Shown: positions 9,042 to 31,327, counted from the first letter of the stretch. The stretch is DNA of 32,642 bases from an uncultured Bacteroidales bacterium (GCA_905235535.1 CAJOLS010000044.1:1-32642); one strand, 5' to 3'. Numbers and translations: made by a program. The notes: generated by a model from the letters alone, not told the origin.

Positions 9042-10715
9042 TTATTTCTTCACCTCGGGCCTTACGTAACGGTCTCCGGTCTGGGCCTTGACGGCCTCGA
9101 TGAAGGCGGGGGCGTAAGCGGGGGAGGTGTGGCGTCCGGGGACAATCTCACCGTCCTTGGAAGGACGCATTACCTGGTCGTTGTGCTTCACGATGAGGAA
9201 CTTGGCCAACTTGTCCCAGCGCTGCATCATCTTGTCCGTGTAGGCGAGGGTTTTGCCGGTGAGGAAGTCGGAGAGGTCTCCGGCCGTCATTCCGGCGGCC
9301 TTGGCCTCCACTTCGGCCTGGTCTGCCTCATAATAGTCTTCCAGCTCTTTCTGGGCGTCGCGGAGGTCTCCAATCATGGCGCTCCAGCGGGGGTAAATCA
9401 TATTGGCCACCCAGTTGTTCATCCAGAAGGCGCTCCCGAAGGAGAATTCGGTGAGTTTGTTGTTCTCCTCGCGGAAAGGGTCCGGAATGCGGTTGATGCC
9501 GCAGTACACGGGCACGTAGGCCACCATGGTGGCATCGTCCATATTGAAATAGGTGATGCCGCCCAGGGCGTCGGGCAGCCAGCTGCGCATGCGGCAAACC
9601 AGGGTCATGCCGCTTTGCTGGCAGCCGATGGGGCGCTCGCGGAACATGTTGGTGCCGTCTTCGCTCTTGAAGTTCACAGGCTGGTTGCGGTAGGGGGAAG
9701 CCCAGGGACCGGCGCTCACATCGGCCGTCATATCCAGGGCGGTTCCCTCGAAGTGGTCCCGCATGTCGTTCTGGATGTCGCGGTAGGTGACGGGCTTGTC
9801 GGGTTTGATCCAGAGGGGCAGGTGGTCCTTTTCGGTCATGTCGCCGTTGATGAAGGGCAGGTAGGAGTCCATCTCCTCCGTGTTGTAGTGGTGGCGGAAG
9901 AAGCTCCATACGCGGGCTTCGCAGGCGCGGATTTTCCCAAAGTCCATGGGGTTGTAGGCCTCGCGGAAGCTGAAGTCCTTGTCGGCCCCGGTGAAATAAC
10001 CCATCTCGCGGGCGAAGCTGATGCAATCGGCCGAATACATGGTATTGCCGTCGGCGGTTACGTAGAAGCCCAGCTTCTTGTCCACCTTCCGGGCCTGGGG
10101 AAACTGCTGGATGCGGCTGGAGTTGGCATAGGCGGTGATGCAGTCGTCGGGGACGCGGAGGGCCACCCAGACGGCGCCCTTGCGGCCTTCGCCCTTGCCC
10201 ACCAGTTCCATGATCCAGGCTTCGTCCTTGTCGCAGATGGCAAAGGATTCACCCGTCTCGTTGTAACCGTATTCATTCACCAGCTGGTTCATGACGGCAA
10301 TGGCCTCGCGGGCCGAGGCAGCGCGCTGAAGGGCCAGTTCCATGAGGTTGAAATAGCCCAGCCAGCCTTCGGGGTTGCGCAGTTCCCGGCGGCCGCCCCA
10401 GGTGGTTTCCACGATGGAGACCTGTTTCTCGTTCATCAGGCCCACCACGGCATAGGTGTAGGGAGCCTGGTCGATGTAGTGGACCGGGGAGCCCGGGAAA
10501 AAGCCGCGGATGGCCACCTTCTCCCCGGGGGCGTGCTGGCCCGGACGGGAATAGGTGAGGGGAGAGATAAAGCCGAAGCTGTCGCAGTTGTAGGTGCAGA
10601 TGACGCTTCCGTCGGCGGAAGCCAGTTTGCCCACCACCAGGTTGGTACAGGCGTGGGACGGGGCCGATAAAGCCAGAAGGGCGGCCGAAAGGGCCAGGGC
10701 CAGGATTCGTTTCAT
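9042..10715 (-). CDS. Secreted C69-family dipeptidase (PepD-like)
   Basis: A 557-residue N-terminal-nucleophile dipeptidase. The signal peptide (MKRILALALSAALLALSAPSHA) ends directly before Cys23 (CTNLVVGKLASADGS), which after cleavage would be the free N-terminal catalytic Cys of the C69/U34 family. Other family features are the Asp/Asn-rich YNCDS, the WGGRRELRNPEGWLGYFNLMELALQRA helix and ESFAICDKDEAWIMEL. It likely acts in the periplasm on dipeptides. It begins 25 bp after the guaA stop on the same strand with no terminator between, so co-transcription with guaA is probable. PSHAC is not a lipobox, which favours the Cys being the nucleophile and not a lipid site. Confidence 0.9.
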   Translation of the reverse strand: MKRILALALSAALLALSAPSHACTNLVVGKLASADGSVICTYNCDSFGFISPLTYSRPGQHAPGEKVAIRGFFPGSPVHYIDQAPYTYAVVGLMNEKQVSIVETTWGGRRELRNPEGWLGYFNLMELALQRAASAREAIAVMNQLVNEYGYNETGESFAICDKDEAWIMELVGKGEGRKGAVWVALRVPDDCITAYANSSRIQQFPQARKVDKKLGFYVTADGNTMYSADCISFAREMGYFTGADKDFSFREAYNPMDFGKIRACEARVWSFFRHHYNTEEMDSYLPFINGDMTEKDHLPLWIKPDKPVTYRDIQNDMRDHFEGTALDMTADVSAGPWASPYRNQPVNFKSEDGTNMFRERPIGCQQSGMTLVCRMRSWLPDALGGITYFNMDDATMVAYVPVYCGINRIPDPFREENNKLTEFSFGSAFWMNNWVANMIYPRWSAMIGDLRDAQKELEDYYEADQAEVEAKAAGMTAGDLSDFLTGKTLAYTDKMMQRWDKLAKFLIVKHNDQVMRPSKDGEIVPGRHTSPAYAPAFIEAVKAQTGDRYVRPEVKK

Positions 10716-22911: not shown

Positions 22912-24047
22912 TGCTTGTTTATGGATTTGTGGAACATTTGGAGAAGAGCCCGGGCCGAATTTGAAATCTCATACTCCTTCATGGATTCTATGTAGGCGTT
23001 CCGGGCTTCTTCCAGCTCCTGGGGATGGTCCAGCCACCAGTCTATCTTCCGGGCCAGTTCCCGGGCGTCGTGCTGATGGAAAAGGCTTCTGTCGTCCAGG
23101 GCAAACTGGCAGGCTCCGGTGATGGGGCCGGTGGCAATGACGGGAACGCCGCCCTGCTGCATGGCTTCCATGATGGAAAGGCCTTCCACCTCGGCCAGGG
23201 CGCAGTGGATGAACAAATCGGCCTTGGCGCCCAGCTGGCGAAGCTGGTCCCGCTTCATGAACTCAAAGGTAGGGTTGTGGGCCAGGATGCCTTTCTTATA
23301 GAGCCGGGCCGCTTTCCGGCGGGTCTTCTTCTCCTGAGGGCCCCGGCCGGCAAAGACCAGCTGGATATCATGGGCATGGCGGCTGTATTTCATGGCCTCC
23401 AGCAGCGTAAGAGGGTCTTTTTCTCCGGAAAGGCGGCCGATGCAGGCCACTATGTAGGGATGGTTTTCGTGCGGCTGCCGTATGCTTTCATCCGGAATGA
23501 TACCATTGGATATGAGGTGAAGCTGAGAGGTACAGCCTATCTTTTTCATGCGCTCCATCACGTTCTGGGTGGGGCACTGGACATGGCTCCAGTGGTTGAA
23601 ACACCAGTTCCTCCAAATATGGAGCAAAAGCCGGTTGGGGAATTTCCAACCGCCCATTCCCAAGGAATAGAAGATATTCTCAGGATGCAGGTGATAGGTT
23701 CCCGTAACGGGTTTTCCCAGCCTTTTGGCAATCTTGGCCGTACGGATTTCCAGCACGAAGGGCTCTTGCATGTGAACTACATCGGCCCAGCGGACGGCCT
23801 CTTCCACCACTTTCACGTCGGTGCTGGAAAACTGGTAACCGTGGGCGCGGATAATGGGCTGGAAAACAGGGAAGTAGAAGTCTTTGAGCCGATAATCCGG
23901 CTGGGGACCTTCGGGATTGTGGTTGGGGCCGGAAAGCACCCTTACCTCTTCTCCCAGCTCTTTTAAAACCTGCACGGTGCGGCGGGCCGATGCCGCCAGG
24001 CCATTCCCGGTGGTGTAAATGCTGTTTAGTACAAAGAGTATTCTCAT
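22908..24047 (-). CDS. GT4-family glycosyltransferase
   Basis: A 379-residue GT-B fold, retaining glycosyltransferase. The N-terminal Rossmann half starts RILFVLNSIYTTGNGLAASARRTVQVLKELG with a Gly-rich acceptor loop. HMQEPFVLEI and GTYHLHPENIFYS are typical of this group. The C-terminal half has CIGRLSGEKDPLTLLEAMKYS (donor phosphate site) and the EX7E motif in AEVEGLSIMEAMQQGGVPVIAT near 298. It likely adds a sugar to a lipid or cell-surface glycan; donor and acceptor cannot be told. It heads an operon with the PCMD protein and probably the permease. A TAACTTTG box is about 30 nt upstream. Confidence 0.9.
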   Translation of the reverse strand: MRILFVLNSIYTTGNGLAASARRTVQVLKELGEEVRVLSGPNHNPEGPQPDYRLKDFYFPVFQPIIRAHGYQFSSTDVKVVEEAVRWADVVHMQEPFVLEIRTAKIAKRLGKPVTGTYHLHPENIFYSLGMGGWKFPNRLLLHIWRNWCFNHWSHVQCPTQNVMERMKKIGCTSQLHLISNGIIPDESIRQPHENHPYIVACIGRLSGEKDPLTLLEAMKYSRHAHDIQLVFAGRGPQEKKTRRKAARLYKKGILAHNPTFEFMKRDQLRQLGAKADLFIHCALAEVEGLSIMEAMQQGGVPVIATGPITGACQFALDDRSLFHQHDARELARKIDWWLDHPQELEEARNAYIESMKEYEISNSARALLQMFHKSINKQ

Positions 24048-24077
24048 TCGTGGAGTTTCATAGTCTTTAAAAGTTTA

Positions 24078-24085
24078 CAAAGTTA
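24078..24085 (-). promoter_or_regulatory. -7 box for the glycosyltransferase operon
   Basis: The minus strand reads TAACTTTG, 30 nt before the ATG at 24047. No TTG at ideal spacing; the upstream DNA is AT-rich. Confidence 0.45.
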
Positions 24086-24155
24086 AACAAAATTTGCGGC
24101 AAATAGAAAGAGGCAGGGAGTTTTCCCATTTTCCCGTCTTTTTAACAACCTACTC

Positions 24156-24186
24156 TTGTTGTAGCAAAGGAAATCTGCTATCTTTG
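24156..24186 (+). promoter_or_regulatory. Promoter upstream of repeat copy F
   Basis: TTG (24156-24158), 20 nt, then TATCTTTG (24179-24186). It directs transcription through repeat copy F into the PEP-synthase-like operon. The -33 region lies in a small inverted repeat (ACAAC...GTTGT, 24144-24163), a possible operator. Confidence 0.6.
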
Positions 24187-24194
24187 GAAGAGTA

Positions 24195-24359
24195 AGAGTC
24201 TGTTTTGAAATGATTGATATTTTTATTTATAGTTTATTTTTGTGGAAATTTTTCTTGGAAATTTTTGGCCATAGGGGGGTTCTTATGGGTGAAAATTTTT
24301 GAGGAAAATTTACCAAAAAGAAACATAAAGAATTTATTGAACATTTCAAAACAGACTCT
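24195..24359 (+). repeat. Fold-back repeat copy F (long form)
   Basis: 165 bp, AGAGTCTG to CAGACTCT, with the central hairpin CCATAGG...CTTATGG and long complementary arms. It lies between two TATCTTTG boxes, and thus inside the control region or 5' leader of the downstream operon. One base is missing in the right terminus (GAACATTTC versus GAATCATTTC). Confidence 0.93.
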
Positions 24360-24366
24360 AAAAGTG

Positions 24367-24374
24367 TATCTTTG
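24367..24374 (+). promoter_or_regulatory. -7 box downstream of repeat copy F
   Basis: TATCTTTG, 26 nt before the ATG at 24401. The base triplet at -33 would fall in the repeat end (CATTTC), a weak match. It could be a second promoter of the operon. Confidence 0.45.
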
Positions 24375-24400
24375 CACCCGGATTTTAGAGCCAGGAGAAT

Positions 24401-25417
24401 ATGTTCTTTAAACTGAAACAAGCTATTATGTGCAAGGCGCTGGAAAGAAGGAATGCGCAGAATCCTTTCCATGCCCAGACTGCCGACAACTATACTATGG
24501 AGGGTGCAACAGACCCTTTGCTGAACAATTCCTATTATTTTTCTGCGCACAGTAACAGGATGTCCGTGTTCGCGCGTCTGGGAAGGCGCGTAAACATGGA
24601 CGAATCTTGGTTCTGCATCTATCTGGACGGGAAGGTTTATTCCCTGCAGGAGGAGGTTTTCCCCGCCGGAGAATCTCCGCTTCTGGTAGAACGGGAAGGG
24701 GAGGACTGGCTGCTCTCCTTCAAGGGAAAGTTGAACGGAAGCGACGAGGTGGACTTTCGGGCCCGCTTTGCACCTAAGTTCGGCCTCATAGATTTTACCA
24801 GCCACATGCCGGCCGTAAGGATGGCTACCGGTATTGCCAACGAGAAGTGGAGCCGGGCTTTCTTCGGGGAACTGCAGAATGTGAGCGGCCAGCACCATTT
24901 TGAACAGGAGGGTGTCCTGGAAGGGCAGTTTACCCTGAACGGCCAAAGCGTGGAGTTTTCCCTGTCCTGCGTAAGGGACCATTCCTATGGCAAGCGTGAC
25001 TGGAACTACATGAACAACCACCTGTGGCTGATGGCCGTATCCGAGGACTGCCAGTTCAACTATTCCCTGGTTTCCTATCCCGTGATTTCGGCCCTGGAAG
25101 TGGGCAATTTCAGGACGGAGGCCGGCATGAGCTATATGCTGGAAGCCAACCTGGATTTCCAGGAGGTAGGGAAGGGCCTTGTGCCGGAAAAACTGGCCTT
25201 CAGCGTAAAGCTGGACGGTGGACAGAACTTGCCGGTACAGGCCAAAAAGCTGGCGGGCGTAACCTATCATTTTCAGGACGGAAAGTATATCCTGCACGAG
25301 AATGTGGCCGAATTCAGGCTGGGAGACAAGCTTTGCCGCGGCATCCTGGAAATTGGCTTCAACAGGGAAGCCGGCCGATATTTTAATCAGAGAGACTTGG
25401 ACAAGATAAAGAGATGA
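24401..25417 (+). CDS. CrtC/DUF7064-like protein, partner of a PEP-synthase-like enzyme
   Basis: A 338-residue soluble protein with no signal peptide or membrane segment. It is rich in beta strands; the second half has CVRDHSYGKRDWNYMNNHLWLMA (about 190-213). This HSxGxRDW signature recalls carotenoid 1,2-hydratase (CrtC)/AttH-like and DUF7064-like lipocalin-related domains, which handle hydrophobic small molecules. That assignment is from motif memory, not a search. An AGGAGA ribosome site precedes the ATG. Its TGA overlaps the ATG of the next gene (ATGA), so the two products are made together and probably act together. From memory, similar domains are fused to PEP-synthase-like enzymes in some animal proteins. 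No function is established. Confidence 0.6.
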   Translation: MFFKLKQAIMCKALERRNAQNPFHAQTADNYTMEGATDPLLNNSYYFSAHSNRMSVFARLGRRVNMDESWFCIYLDGKVYSLQEEVFPAGESPLLVEREGEDWLLSFKGKLNGSDEVDFRARFAPKFGLIDFTSHMPAVRMATGIANEKWSRAFFGELQNVSGQHHFEQEGVLEGQFTLNGQSVEFSLSCVRDHSYGKRDWNYMNNHLWLMAVSEDCQFNYSLVSYPVISALEVGNFRTEAGMSYMLEANLDFQEVGKGLVPEKLAFSVKLDGGQNLPVQAKKLAGVTYHFQDGKYILHENVAEFRLGDKLCRGILEIGFNREAGRYFNQRDLDKIKR

Positions 25418-27756
25418 AGATTTACCCGTTAGGAGCATTGCCCCAGGAACTGTATCCCGGGGTTGGAGGGAAAGCAAAAGGGCTGGATTTATTGGTGAGG
25501 AAGGGGTTCACCGTTCCTGCCGGATTTGTAATCACCGATGGGGATAACATTGAGCAGGAGGCTGTATATCAGGCCTTTGACGCCCTTGGGGTGAAACAGG
25601 TTTCCGTGCGCTCTTCCGCTTCCAATGAAGACGGCGCCGAGGCTTCCAACGCGGGCCAGTACGAGACTTGCCTGTTTGTGGACCGGGAGCATCTTCTGGA
25701 AAGCGTGCAGAAATGCCTGGCTTCCCTGGACTCCGAGCGCGTACAGGATTATGCCCGGCATTTTGATCTGTCCAAGGGCCGGATGAACATTGTGGTGCAG
25801 GAGATGATTGACAGCGACAAGGCGGGCGTTCTCTTTACGGCCGATCCCAACAAGGGCTCCCACATCCTCATTGAGGCGGTGGAGGGGCAGGGAGAGAACC
25901 TGGTCTCAGGGCAGGTATCGGCCCGCCGCTACCAGATTTCCCGCAAATGCTACAGGCCTTGTGCCGATGAGCTTCTGTCCGAAGAAGAAGTGAGGCAGCT
26001 CTATGAAGCCGGGAAGAAAATACGGGAAGTGTTTGGAGAGGAAATGGATGTGGAATGGGCCCTTTGCGGCGGAAAGCTGTATCTTTTGCAGATGCGCCCC
26101 ATTACTACGGAAATCGTTGACATAGAGGAGTTTGACCGGGAGGATGATTTGAGCGGCCATCTGTTCACCAAGCGGAATGTGGGGGAGATGATGCCGGGCG
26201 CCGTTACCCCGCTCACCCTGTCCACCTCCGTCAAGGCCATAGATTACGGCATGCGGTATTTCCTGATGACGGCCGGGGTGTATAAGTCTCCCTGCGAGGA
26301 AGCTCCTCTGCGGCTTGTCTCTTCCATCTCCGGGCACCTGTTTTTCGACATGAACCTGCTGTACAATATGTACGCGAAGGTGGCCATAGCCCATCCCCAG
26401 TCCATGAACCTGTCCATTATGGGAGAGTATCACGACTATCCGCCCGTTACGCTTCCTTTCTCCAATGCCTTTGTACGCTGCGTCAATTCCGCCAAGTTTC
26501 TTACCTATGTTTTCTCCGGCCACCGCGCCATGGGAAAATTCGACGAACTGCTCACAAGGGTGCATTTTGTGGAGACTTCATCGGCCCGGGAACTTTATAA
26601 GAGCATAGACGCCAACCTGGCCCTTCTGGACGAGAGCCTCATTTACCACTATGCTTCATCGGCCTATTCCGGCAGCGCTTCCAGTACGCTGTACCGGATG
26701 GTGGACAAGTATTTCCCGGATAAGAAGGAGTACCAGTCTTTCCTTTCGCACCTTCTTTCCAATATCCCGCATATTGAAAGTGCGGATATCCTGACCCGCC
26801 TGCAGGAAATGGCGCGGATTATCAAGAAACAGGAGCCCAGGGCCCTGGAAATGGGGCCTCAGGAACTGCTGGATTGTATTCAGGCCGACAAGGACCTTCA
26901 CCGCCGCTATCTGGATTTCCTGGCCCATCACGGCCACCGCTGCATCAAGGAGGCCGAGATGAGGAACAAGCCCTGGAGGGAGGACGAGATTCCGCTGATG
27001 AATTACCTCTCCAGCATCATCCGTTCGCCCATGGACCTGGAGCAGAAGGAGCCGGTGACAGACTACCGGAAAGAGTTTGGTTTTGTCAAGAATCCGCTCC
27101 TGAAGGCGGCCTGCATCAGCTATGCCAAAAAGTCCCGCGAGGCGGTGGTGGACCGCGAATATACCAAGTCCCGCCTGATAGAAATCATAGACCTTTTCAA
27201 GACACAGTATGCCCGGCTGGCCAAGCTTCTGGTGGCTGGCGGCCTTCTCCCCGACACGGATTTGGTCTATTTCCTCACGCACGGGGAAATCGGCCGTCTC
27301 ATCGAGGGAGAAACCTCCCTTGCTCCGCTGGCCGAAAGGCGCCGGAAGGCTTATGCCATCCAGGAAGAACTTTCCTTTGACGATATTTACATGGGAAAGC
27401 CCGTGGCCGATGTCTTTGACGTGGAAGAAAGTGACGGAACCCTGACCGGAGTGCCGGTTTCCAACGGGGAATGCGAGGGCTTTGTGCGCATTATCCGTTC
27501 TGCCGAAGACGCCAACAAACTGCAGAAGGGGGAGATTATGGTGGCCAAGTTTACGGATATTGGCTGGACCCCTTACTATTCCATGGTCAAGGGATTGGTC
27601 ACGGAGATTGGTTCCTCCCTGTCCCATGGGGCGGTGGTGGCCCGGGAATACGGTTTGCCCACCATTGTCAATGTAAAAGGAGCCACCAAACTGCTCAAGG
27701 ATGGCGACTACATTGTGATGGACGCCAGCAGGGGCCGGATTACTCTACGGGATTAG
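25414..27756 (+). CDS. PEP-synthase/rifampicin-phosphotransferase-like enzyme
   Basis: A 780-residue three-domain enzyme. The N-terminal ATP-grasp domain (PPDK_N; 1 to about 230) has GGKAKGLDLLVRKGFTVPAGFV, VSVRSSASNEDG, VVQEMIDSDKAGVLFTADP, LIEAVEGQGENLVSG and QMRPIT. A middle domain (about 240-660) starts with NVGEMMPGAVTPLTLS, as in rifampicin phosphotransferases. The C-terminal swivelling domain (about 680-780) has FTDIGWTPYYSM and the catalytic His738 in SSLSHGAVVAREYGLPTIVNV. The TIM-barrel PEP/pyruvate domain of true PEP synthase is absent, so the enzyme more likely moves the beta-phosphate of ATP to an unknown small molecule via phospho-His. It is translationally coupled to the CrtC/DUF7064-like gene. 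Confidence 0.85.
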   Translation: MKIYPLGALPQELYPGVGGKAKGLDLLVRKGFTVPAGFVITDGDNIEQEAVYQAFDALGVKQVSVRSSASNEDGAEASNAGQYETCLFVDREHLLESVQKCLASLDSERVQDYARHFDLSKGRMNIVVQEMIDSDKAGVLFTADPNKGSHILIEAVEGQGENLVSGQVSARRYQISRKCYRPCADELLSEEEVRQLYEAGKKIREVFGEEMDVEWALCGGKLYLLQMRPITTEIVDIEEFDREDDLSGHLFTKRNVGEMMPGAVTPLTLSTSVKAIDYGMRYFLMTAGVYKSPCEEAPLRLVSSISGHLFFDMNLLYNMYAKVAIAHPQSMNLSIMGEYHDYPPVTLPFSNAFVRCVNSAKFLTYVFSGHRAMGKFDELLTRVHFVETSSARELYKSIDANLALLDESLIYHYASSAYSGSASSTLYRMVDKYFPDKKEYQSFLSHLLSNIPHIESADILTRLQEMARIIKKQEPRALEMGPQELLDCIQADKDLHRRYLDFLAHHGHRCIKEAEMRNKPWREDEIPLMNYLSSIIRSPMDLEQKEPVTDYRKEFGFVKNPLLKAACISYAKKSREAVVDREYTKSRLIEIIDLFKTQYARLAKLLVAGGLLPDTDLVYFLTHGEIGRLIEGETSLAPLAERRRKAYAIQEELSFDDIYMGKPVADVFDVEESDGTLTGVPVSNGECEGFVRIIRSAEDANKLQKGEIMVAKFTDIGWTPYYSMVKGLVTEIGSSLSHGAVVAREYGLPTIVNVKGATKLLKDGDYIVMDASRGRITLRD

Positions 27757-30460: not shown

Positions 30461-31327
30461 ATGGATAATTACGAACTCATTCATTTAGAGGACTATACAC
30501 AGTCCGGAGAAGGCGGAACGGCCGTTTCCTATACCCATAAAAACCGCAGAACCCTTGCCAAACTGTATAAACCCGGTTTCGAGGCAGACAGGGCCAAGGC
30601 GGAATTCTTTACCGCCCGTGCGGTCTATCAGATGGGCATCCCCACTCCGGAACCCTACAGACTGGTAACGGACGGGGAGCGCTACGGAGCAGAATACGAG
30701 CTGGTAGGTGGGAAGCGTTCGTTTACCCGCATCATTTCGCAGGAACCGGAGCGGCTGGAGGAAATCTCCCTTGCCTTTGCGGCCCAGGCGAAAGCCTTGC
30801 ATTCCACACCGGCCGATACGGCTCATCTCCACTCTTACAAGCAGGTTCTCGCGAAGTTCTACAAGGAGAAGGATATGGTTCCCGAATCGTACAGACAGCG
30901 TTCTCTGGCTTTCCTTGAGACAGTGGCCGATACGCCCACCTGCCTGCACGGAGACCTCCAGATCGGGAATATCATCACCGACGGAAAACGTACCCTCTGG
31001 ATAGATGTGGGAGAGTTCAGTTATGGCGCTCCCGAGTGGGATCTGAGCATTATGTGGATTATGTCGTACAGGATGGATGCCCAGCGGGCCGACCATCTGT
31101 TTCACATTACCCCGGAACAGATAAAAAAGCATTGGAACATTTTCCTTCCTGCCTATCTGGGTACTTCAGACCCTCAGGTTCTGGAGGAATACTCGCGCCG
31201 TCTTGCCCCTTACTATGCGGTAAAGGTGCCCTATGTCTATGACATGGCGTACCACACCCGCCTCCCGGAGCAAAGTTTCCAGCTTATCGACCGTTTCCTT
31301 GAAAAAGTGCCCGGTTCGGAGGAATAG
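30461..31327 (+). CDS. APH-family phosphotransferase (TIGR02172-like)
   Basis: A 288-residue protein-kinase-like small-molecule kinase. The N-lobe has a Gly-rich GEGGTAVSY loop (about 17-25) and a Lys in RRTLAKLYKPGFE. The C-lobe has the catalytic loop CLHGDLQIGNII (about 165) with Asp and Asn, then the metal-binding Asp in LWIDVGEFSYGAPEWDLSIMW, a variant of the usual DFG/DFE motif. The pattern fits the TIGR02172 group of aminoglycoside-phosphotransferase-like proteins. The substrate is unknown and antibiotic resistance should not be assumed. It is second in the operon with the NAD(P)-binding protein and ends 14 bp from the convergent pgeF. Confidence 0.83.
   Translation: MDNYELIHLEDYTQSGEGGTAVSYTHKNRRTLAKLYKPGFEADRAKAEFFTARAVYQMGIPTPEPYRLVTDGERYGAEYELVGGKRSFTRIISQEPERLEEISLAFAAQAKALHSTPADTAHLHSYKQVLAKFYKEKDMVPESYRQRSLAFLETVADTPTCLHGDLQIGNIITDGKRTLWIDVGEFSYGAPEWDLSIMWIMSYRMDAQRADHLFHITPEQIKKHWNIFLPAYLGTSDPQVLEEYSRRLAPYYAVKVPYVYDMAYHTRLPEQSFQLIDRFLEKVPGSEE

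Follow-up and report, generated by a model that had tools for sequence, protein, structure and literature searches.

A putative kinase-lyase gene pair for ATP-driven dehydration of a hydrophobic alcohol in an uncultured Bacteroidales bacterium

Two overlapping genes, P1 and P2, were analyzed in a 32,642 nt stretch of DNA from an uncultured Bacteroidales bacterium (GCA_905235535.1 CAJOLS010000044.1:1-32642; the whole stretch is called the window below). Their anonymous annotation reads 'phosphoenolpyruvate synthase' plus 'hypothetical protein'. Sequence comparison identified P2 as a small-molecule dikinase of the rifampin phosphotransferase (RPH) type and P1 as a distant homologue of 25-phosphosteroid lyase (25-PSL), and the two probably act as a kinase and a lyase that together dehydrate a hydrophobic alcohol at the expense of ATP. 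The evidence from sequence and fold comprises both folds, the RPH residues found in P2, the homology between 25-PSL and P1, the way the two genes are coupled, and the adjacency of DUF7064 genes, relatives of P1, to kinase genes. P1 would be the lyase, with both steps acting on one molecule. The initial annotation had proposed that the pair phosphorylates a hydrophobic molecule. Its phosphotransferase part held; P1 as a mere binder and phosphorylation as the end result were judged wrong or incomplete, because 25-PSL, the closest characterized relative of P1, is a lyase and takes the phosphate off a phosphorylated alcohol, which makes ATP-driven dehydration the likely net reaction. The functional reading should therefore move from phosphorylation alone to phosphorylation followed by elimination, the elimination step being proposed by analogy.

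Conservation of P1 and P2 as one unit

Both open reading frames (ORFs) were found at 24401-27756 with the ATGA overlap first described for them (Table 1). A pattern search returned a P1 relative in 56 loci, mostly from ruminant-gut Bacteroidales judging by record titles, Acholeplasmatales and Clostridia supplying the outliers; a search of one Clostridia class sample returned the query genome only. P2 followed P1 directly wherever the contig was long enough, except at L071 (solitary P1) and L040 (3.1 kb insertion), and the P1-P2 gap was exactly -4 in 44/48 measured loci. The P1 and P2 distance matrices were correlated (r = 0.86, 44 rumen loci), a value reached by 0/1000 permutations. Both genes or neither were present in each of 101 genomes (the window's own and relatives), with the pair in the same 6 (random-match probability 8e-10, ignoring relatedness). 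Flanking genes were not conserved, a third gene family occurring in at most 5 loci, and a larger conserved operon was rejected, as the best flanking cluster reached just 5 loci. No P1-P2 fusion in one chain was seen in the bacterial loci examined, and nothing useful was found in the literature on animal fusions. P1 and P2 form one functional unit, and the expectation that they are kept together in other genomes was borne out. As the pair is tightly coupled while its flanking genes vary, it looks like a small, horizontally spread cassette, with the substrate or the rest of the pathway not encoded beside it.

It is very improbable that co-transcription is all that links the two genes and that their products serve separate processes. 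One Rikenellaceae genome in which P1 and P2 each also stand alone would fit such an arrangement, as would joint folding without a confident complex, but the identical presence and absence in 101 genomes, the constant 4-base overlap, the correlated divergence and the variable flanks all argue against it, and DUF7064 was independently paired with an RPH-type kinase in Rhodococcus.

Several loci departed from the usual layout. The solitary P1 lay behind an SDR gene (L071:2204-4200); the same Rikenellaceae genome (G786; L088, L098, L110) also carried the solitary P2 and, at a third locus, a P1-P2 pair with the motif RDRAWGKRDW. The insertion between P1 and P2 at L040:9018-12089 held tyrosine phosphatase, HAD hydrolase and metallophosphoesterase genes and was bordered by a 103-nt direct repeat (88%) spanning the P1 end. 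P1 and P2 were both interrupted at L066:8001-11320, and P2 was split into two frames at L051:9018-11409; these are decaying genes or assembly errors.

Homology, predicted folds and conserved residues

A Pfam search of P2 gave matches to PPDK_N (6.5e-43) and C-terminal PEP-utilisers (3.5e-22) and reported no phosphoenolpyruvate (PEP)-binding barrel domain. The closest PDB relatives were Listeria RPH structures (about 1e-59), with a collinear alignment over both ends and the C-terminal part of the middle domain, and RPH topped the list in a fold search with the joint P1-P2 model (5hv1, E 6e-24). In RPH, R117 and T136 (ATP site) and R666, E667 and K670 (acceptor site) flank phosphoryl transfer, H825 is the carrier, and RPH that has lost R117, T136, R666 or E667 no longer confers resistance to rifampin or no longer inactivates it (PMC4844700). 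RPH R117, T136, E297, R666, E667, K670 and H825 corresponded to P2 R66, T85, E214, R581, E582, K585 and H738, the last within SSLSHGAVVARE. These P2 residues were invariant (21/21 P2 sequences), and the R/E/K and H were also kept in remoter relatives (a second genus of the class and the Rikenellaceae genome). P2 therefore has the ATP-grasp, middle and swivel domain order of an RPH-type dikinase without a PEP barrel, together with the catalytic His and the acceptor-site Arg, Glu and Lys, in agreement with the domains, His738 and RPH-like phosphotransferase character first ascribed to it. The rifampin-site Q336/Q337 of RPH were G257/E258 in P2. Scores lay far under the cut-offs of the rifamycin-inactivating RPH model (NF041857; 259 bits vs. 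999), the prodigiosin ligase models PigC (274 vs. 1300) and RedH (270 vs. 1350), so that by these cut-offs P2 is none of the three; PEP synthase and RPH proper were ruled out by architecture and scores. Because the catalytic residues are kept, Q336/Q337 are replaced and the RPH-model score is so low, the phosphoryl-transfer machinery is retained and the substrate has probably changed.

P1 matched DUF7064 (9.5e-5) and the end of DUF7065 (7.6e-4) in Pfam, both just under the curated cut-offs; the Pfam cut-off was missed by 1.5 bits with P1 as a protein and passed in the genome search. The match to NCBIfam Rv3169_fam (NF053593) was also sub-threshold (1.1e-4; 21 bits vs. a cut-off of 150), whereas 25-PSL is a full member of that family (368 bits). 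An AlphaFold2 model of P1 (27 sequences; pLDDT 95.2, pTM 0.92) was compared with the PDB in Foldseek: 25-PSL came first (9g4c, E 2.5e-12), followed by AttH (2ich), kievitone hydratase and pericyclases. The CrtC/AttH-type fold first claimed for P1 was thus recovered, and its HSYGKRDW signature was present (aa 194-201). In profile comparisons (hhalign), P1 aligned with 15 plasmid DUF7064/7065 proteins (99.6%, E 1.5e-23, 278 columns), which makes it homologous to the DUF7065/DUF7064 superfamily; the profile of those 15 proteins matched 25-PSL over its whole length (E 7e-12) and AttH less closely (1e-6). A literature search on DUF7064/DUF7065 found nothing, and the titles and abstracts listed for Rv3169 showed no biochemical role. 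A carotenoid hydratase reading of P1 was rejected, as P1 had no Pfam CrtC match at E up to 1 and no squalene/phytoene synthase was found in eight genomes of the genus.

The motif RDxSxGxRxW occurred without exception in 62 P1 sequences from the pattern and class searches combined (R, D, S, G, R and W invariant), and R-D-x-S-x-G-x-R, including the Asp, was common to P1, DUF7064 proteins and 25-PSL. Ser is the least strict motif residue, one relative having RDRAWGKR. Wild-type 25-PSL carries RDRSWGVR and the crystallized product complex 9g4c RNRSWGVR; we take this Asp to Asn exchange in the product complex as a sign that the motif Asp is catalytic. By homology P1 is a distant relative of 25-PSL, and because it falls short of the 25-PSL/Rv3169 family cut-off it is proposed to 'work like' a 25-PSL, not to be one.

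Table 1. Features of the P1-P2 pair, in window coordinates
Feature	Position	Strand	Basis and remarks
P1	24401-25417	+	ORF, 338 aa; DUF7065/DUF7064 superfamily, CrtC/AttH-like double barrel, proposed phosphoester lyase
P2	25414-27756	+	ORF, 780 aa; RPH-type small-molecule dikinase
ATGA overlap, P1 stop/P2 start	25414-25417	+	ORF calls; -4 geometry kept in 44/48 loci
P1 motif R192-D193-H-S195-x-G197-x-R199-D-W201, proposed active site	24974-25003	+	D193 codon 24977-24979, aligns with 25-PSL D176
P2 ATP-grasp domain (~aa 17-230) with K20, R66, T85, E214	25462-26103	+	Pfam and RPH alignment/residue map
P2 middle (substrate) domain, equivalent of the RPH RIF-binding domain	26131-27423	+	Collinear RPH alignment; boundaries approximate
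P2 R581-E582-x-x-K585, inside the middle domain	27154-27168	+	RPH residue map
P2 swivel phospho-His domain	27451-27747	+	Pfam PEP-utilisers, aa 704-774
P2 H738 codon	27625-27627	+	Aligns with RPH catalytic His825

The sole base-composition signal was a G+C dip (0.45) in the 24000-24999 block, beginning before P1. A promoter scan performed no better than on shuffled sequence.

Kinase neighbors and the proposed reaction

Eighteen plasmid loci with DUF7064/7065 genes were inspected, and the next gene was a kinase in 12 of them. Ten kinases were APH-type (Pseudonocardia, Sphingomonas, two Novosphingobium, Sphingopyxis, Mycobacterium paragordonae, two M. branderi, Cupriavidus and Rhodococcus rhodochrous GD02) and two were PEP-utiliser/RPH-type (M. 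avium pP7a and Rhodococcus sp. ZPP); among the remaining six loci an APH gene was nearby in 3 and absent in 3. Across the annotated loci, counted by hand from annotation tables, kinases occupied 10/26 adjacent vs. 2/97 other positions (p 1.8e-6; p = 9.9e-6 without the locus found via a kinase query). Since DUF7064 proteins accompany small-molecule kinases of two unrelated folds, this argues that the DUF7064-type role is tied to the phosphorylated product and not to one kinase.

In the proposed mechanism, ATP bound in the ATP-grasp domain of P2 would phosphorylate the His carrier H738, with ATP converted to AMP + Pi as RPH does; the swivel domain, which bears H738, would then move to the middle domain, where R581/E582/K585 would pass the phosphate to the substrate hydroxyl. 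The phosphorylated product would enter the P1 barrel, its phosphate held by RDxSxGxRxW, and D193 would assist elimination to Pi and an alkene. An ordinary ATP kinase works uphill when it phosphorylates a tertiary alcohol; a dikinase reaction (ATP to AMP + Pi) could overcome the unfavorable equilibrium and make the step effectively irreversible. As to one substrate serving both proteins, strict genetic coupling of the kinase gene and the gene of the 25-PSL-related putative lyase was observed. The substrate may be a tertiary or otherwise activated alcohol, and we would guess one from food or host (a plant terpenoid or sterol), because the genes flanking the pair include none for a terpenoid pathway and a squalene/phytoene synthase was not found. 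A self-made carotenoid or triterpenoid is unlikely, since the searched genus members were without squalene/phytoene synthase.

An alternative is that phosphorylation by P2 serves to inactivate or trap a hydrophobic xenobiotic and that P1, lipocalin-like and without catalytic activity, is a carrier for presenting or sequestering substrate or product. P2 does resemble RPH, double barrels of the P1 fold bind lipids in AttH-type proteins (2ich match), and the pair is accessory and patchy (6/101 genomes), as is typical of detoxification genes. This was nonetheless judged unlikely: the most conserved part of P1 is a polar motif (R, D, S, G, R, W) that fits phosphate chemistry better than passive binding, its nearest characterized relative is a lyase, and DUF7064 genes adjoin two unrelated kinase classes. 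More doubtful still is a small biosynthetic route with P1 as its hydratase, cyclase or pericyclase-like enzyme and a PigC/RedH-like P2 that drives a condensation by phosphorylation. P2 scores the PigC, RedH and RPH models about equally and the P1 fold also matches kievitone hydratase and pericyclases; however, the PigC and RedH scores are a fifth of their cut-offs, sequence ties P1 to 25-PSL and not to hydratases or pericyclases, and across 56 loci the pair has no further conserved biosynthetic neighbor.

Several points weigh against ATP-driven dehydration by a kinase-lyase pair. Direct matches between P1 and 25-PSL were weak: 25-PSL was on top when the P1 profile was run against PDB sequences, but at E 0.024, hhalign of P1 with the single 25-PSL sequence gave 60% probability (8.8e-5), and the TM-score was about 0.58. 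P1 is under the cut-off of every named family, and its fold is also found in hydratases, pericyclases and functionally uncharacterized proteins. The role suggested for D176 of 25-PSL was read off the crystallized variant. Phosphorylation by P2 and phosphate elimination by P1 are both predictions. The kinase of the Rhodococcus DUF7064 pair lacks the Glu of the R-E dyad, and joint folding of the P1-P2 chain obtained by reading through the in-frame stop of L028 gave a pTM of 0.46 and no confident arrangement. The Rikenellaceae genome has P1 and P2 each alone, and the kinase and lyase genes of Sterolibacterium denitrificans, the closest functional analogue, are not neighbors, whereas P1 and P2 adjoin.

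Further observations were made around these genes. R. rhodochrous GD02, the source of HpeHI, carries a plasmid DUF7064 gene adjoining an APH-type kinase gene (L124:2455-5047). On a Mycobacterium branderi plasmid (L115:2529-7681), an APH kinase gene, a DUF7064 gene and cytochrome P450 genes stand in one run, as expected for hydroxylate-phosphorylate-eliminate chemistry. On a Roseinatronobacter plasmid (L125:523-7093), closely packed genes encode a UbiA prenyltransferase, a DUF3419 protein, two proteins that match nothing in Pfam and an RPH-like kinase (27%, covering 97% of P2). A Y_phosphatase3 (PF13350) gene recurs near the pair in rumen loci (L017:1451-2356, L049:6187-7065, L056:11353-12234, and two copies in L040, one of them at 9134-9985 between P1 and P2), and a tyrosine-phosphatase gene lies near sphingomonad DUF7064-APH pairs (L085:4604-5359, PF13350 confirmed; L112:8642-8855, cut and by annotation only); the tyrosine phosphatase may act on the same phosphorylated molecules. 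APH-type kinase genes occur a few genes from the pair (window 30461-31327, L017:11385-13119, L056:13088-14922, L040:3794-4717), the two of L017 directly after P2 on the same strand. The window kinase and one L056 copy are TIGR02172, and because this is typed as a paralogue family their nearness may be chance.

To our knowledge, the sole known case of ATP-driven dehydration by a separate kinase and lyase is an anaerobic sterol pathway. Evenly balanced, in our judgement, is the wider proposal that an RPH-type dikinase and a 25-PSL-type lyase form a new, irreversible class of ATP-driven dehydratase in ruminant gut bacteria that turns tertiary (isoprenoid/sterol-like) alcohols into alkenes, and that DUF7064/7065 proteins are widespread, unnamed phosphate-eliminating lyases served by two unrelated kinase classes. 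If true, ATP-driven dehydration would be a general strategy, carried in gut bacteria by a small two-gene cassette, and two large Pfam domains, DUF7064 and DUF7065, including the mycobacterial Rv3169 family, would receive their first functional hypothesis. The anonymous annotation of the pair becomes a directly testable two-step proposal.

Comparison with known systems

The initial annotation knew of no described pathway, but 25-hydroxysteroid kinase (25-HSK) with 25-PSL is a described analogue (PMC8449060, PMC11061730). In sterol breakdown by S. denitrificans, the kinase phosphorylates a tertiary alcohol and the lyase then removes the phosphate to give an alkene; the phosphoryl transfer potential of the phosphate ester is unusually high, and the kinase step can be reversed (PMC8449060). 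The logic proposed for P1 and P2 is alike, as an alcohol would be phosphorylated and phosphate eliminated to an alkene, and 25-PSL and P1 share the RDxSxGxR motif. The kinases differ, 25-HSK being a 40-kDa 'phosphotransferase' with a sequential ATP-to-ADP mechanism and P2 an RPH-type dikinase of an unrelated class. What is proposed as new here is the RPH-type kinase class within a kinase plus phosphate-eliminating lyase logic that is itself known from 25-HSK/25-PSL.

RPH and P2 are alike in domain order, phosphoryl-transfer residues and fold; P2 is set apart by its diverged middle domain, its score far under the RPH cut-off and its nearly constant pairing with P1. The two-component phenol dikinases HpeHI, CreHI and PpsAB (PMC12167813) are likewise RPH-related small-molecule dikinases that start catabolism, and HpeI was a fold match of the joint P1-P2 model; their components are split RPH halves, whereas P2 is a whole RPH-type chain and P1 has a different fold. 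The double-barrel fold of P1 is common to AttH (NE1406) and kievitone hydratase, and the CrtC carotenoid hydratase belongs to the same fold group, but P1 has no Pfam CrtC match and the genomes have no squalene/phytoene synthase. The plasmid DUF7064/DUF7065 proteins (Sphingomonas, Mycobacterium, Novosphingobium, Cupriavidus) offer a homologous lyase-like partner, often with overlapping genes; their partner kinases are of the APH type, the exceptions being M. avium pP7a and Rhodococcus sp. ZPP, each with a PEP-utiliser-type kinase.

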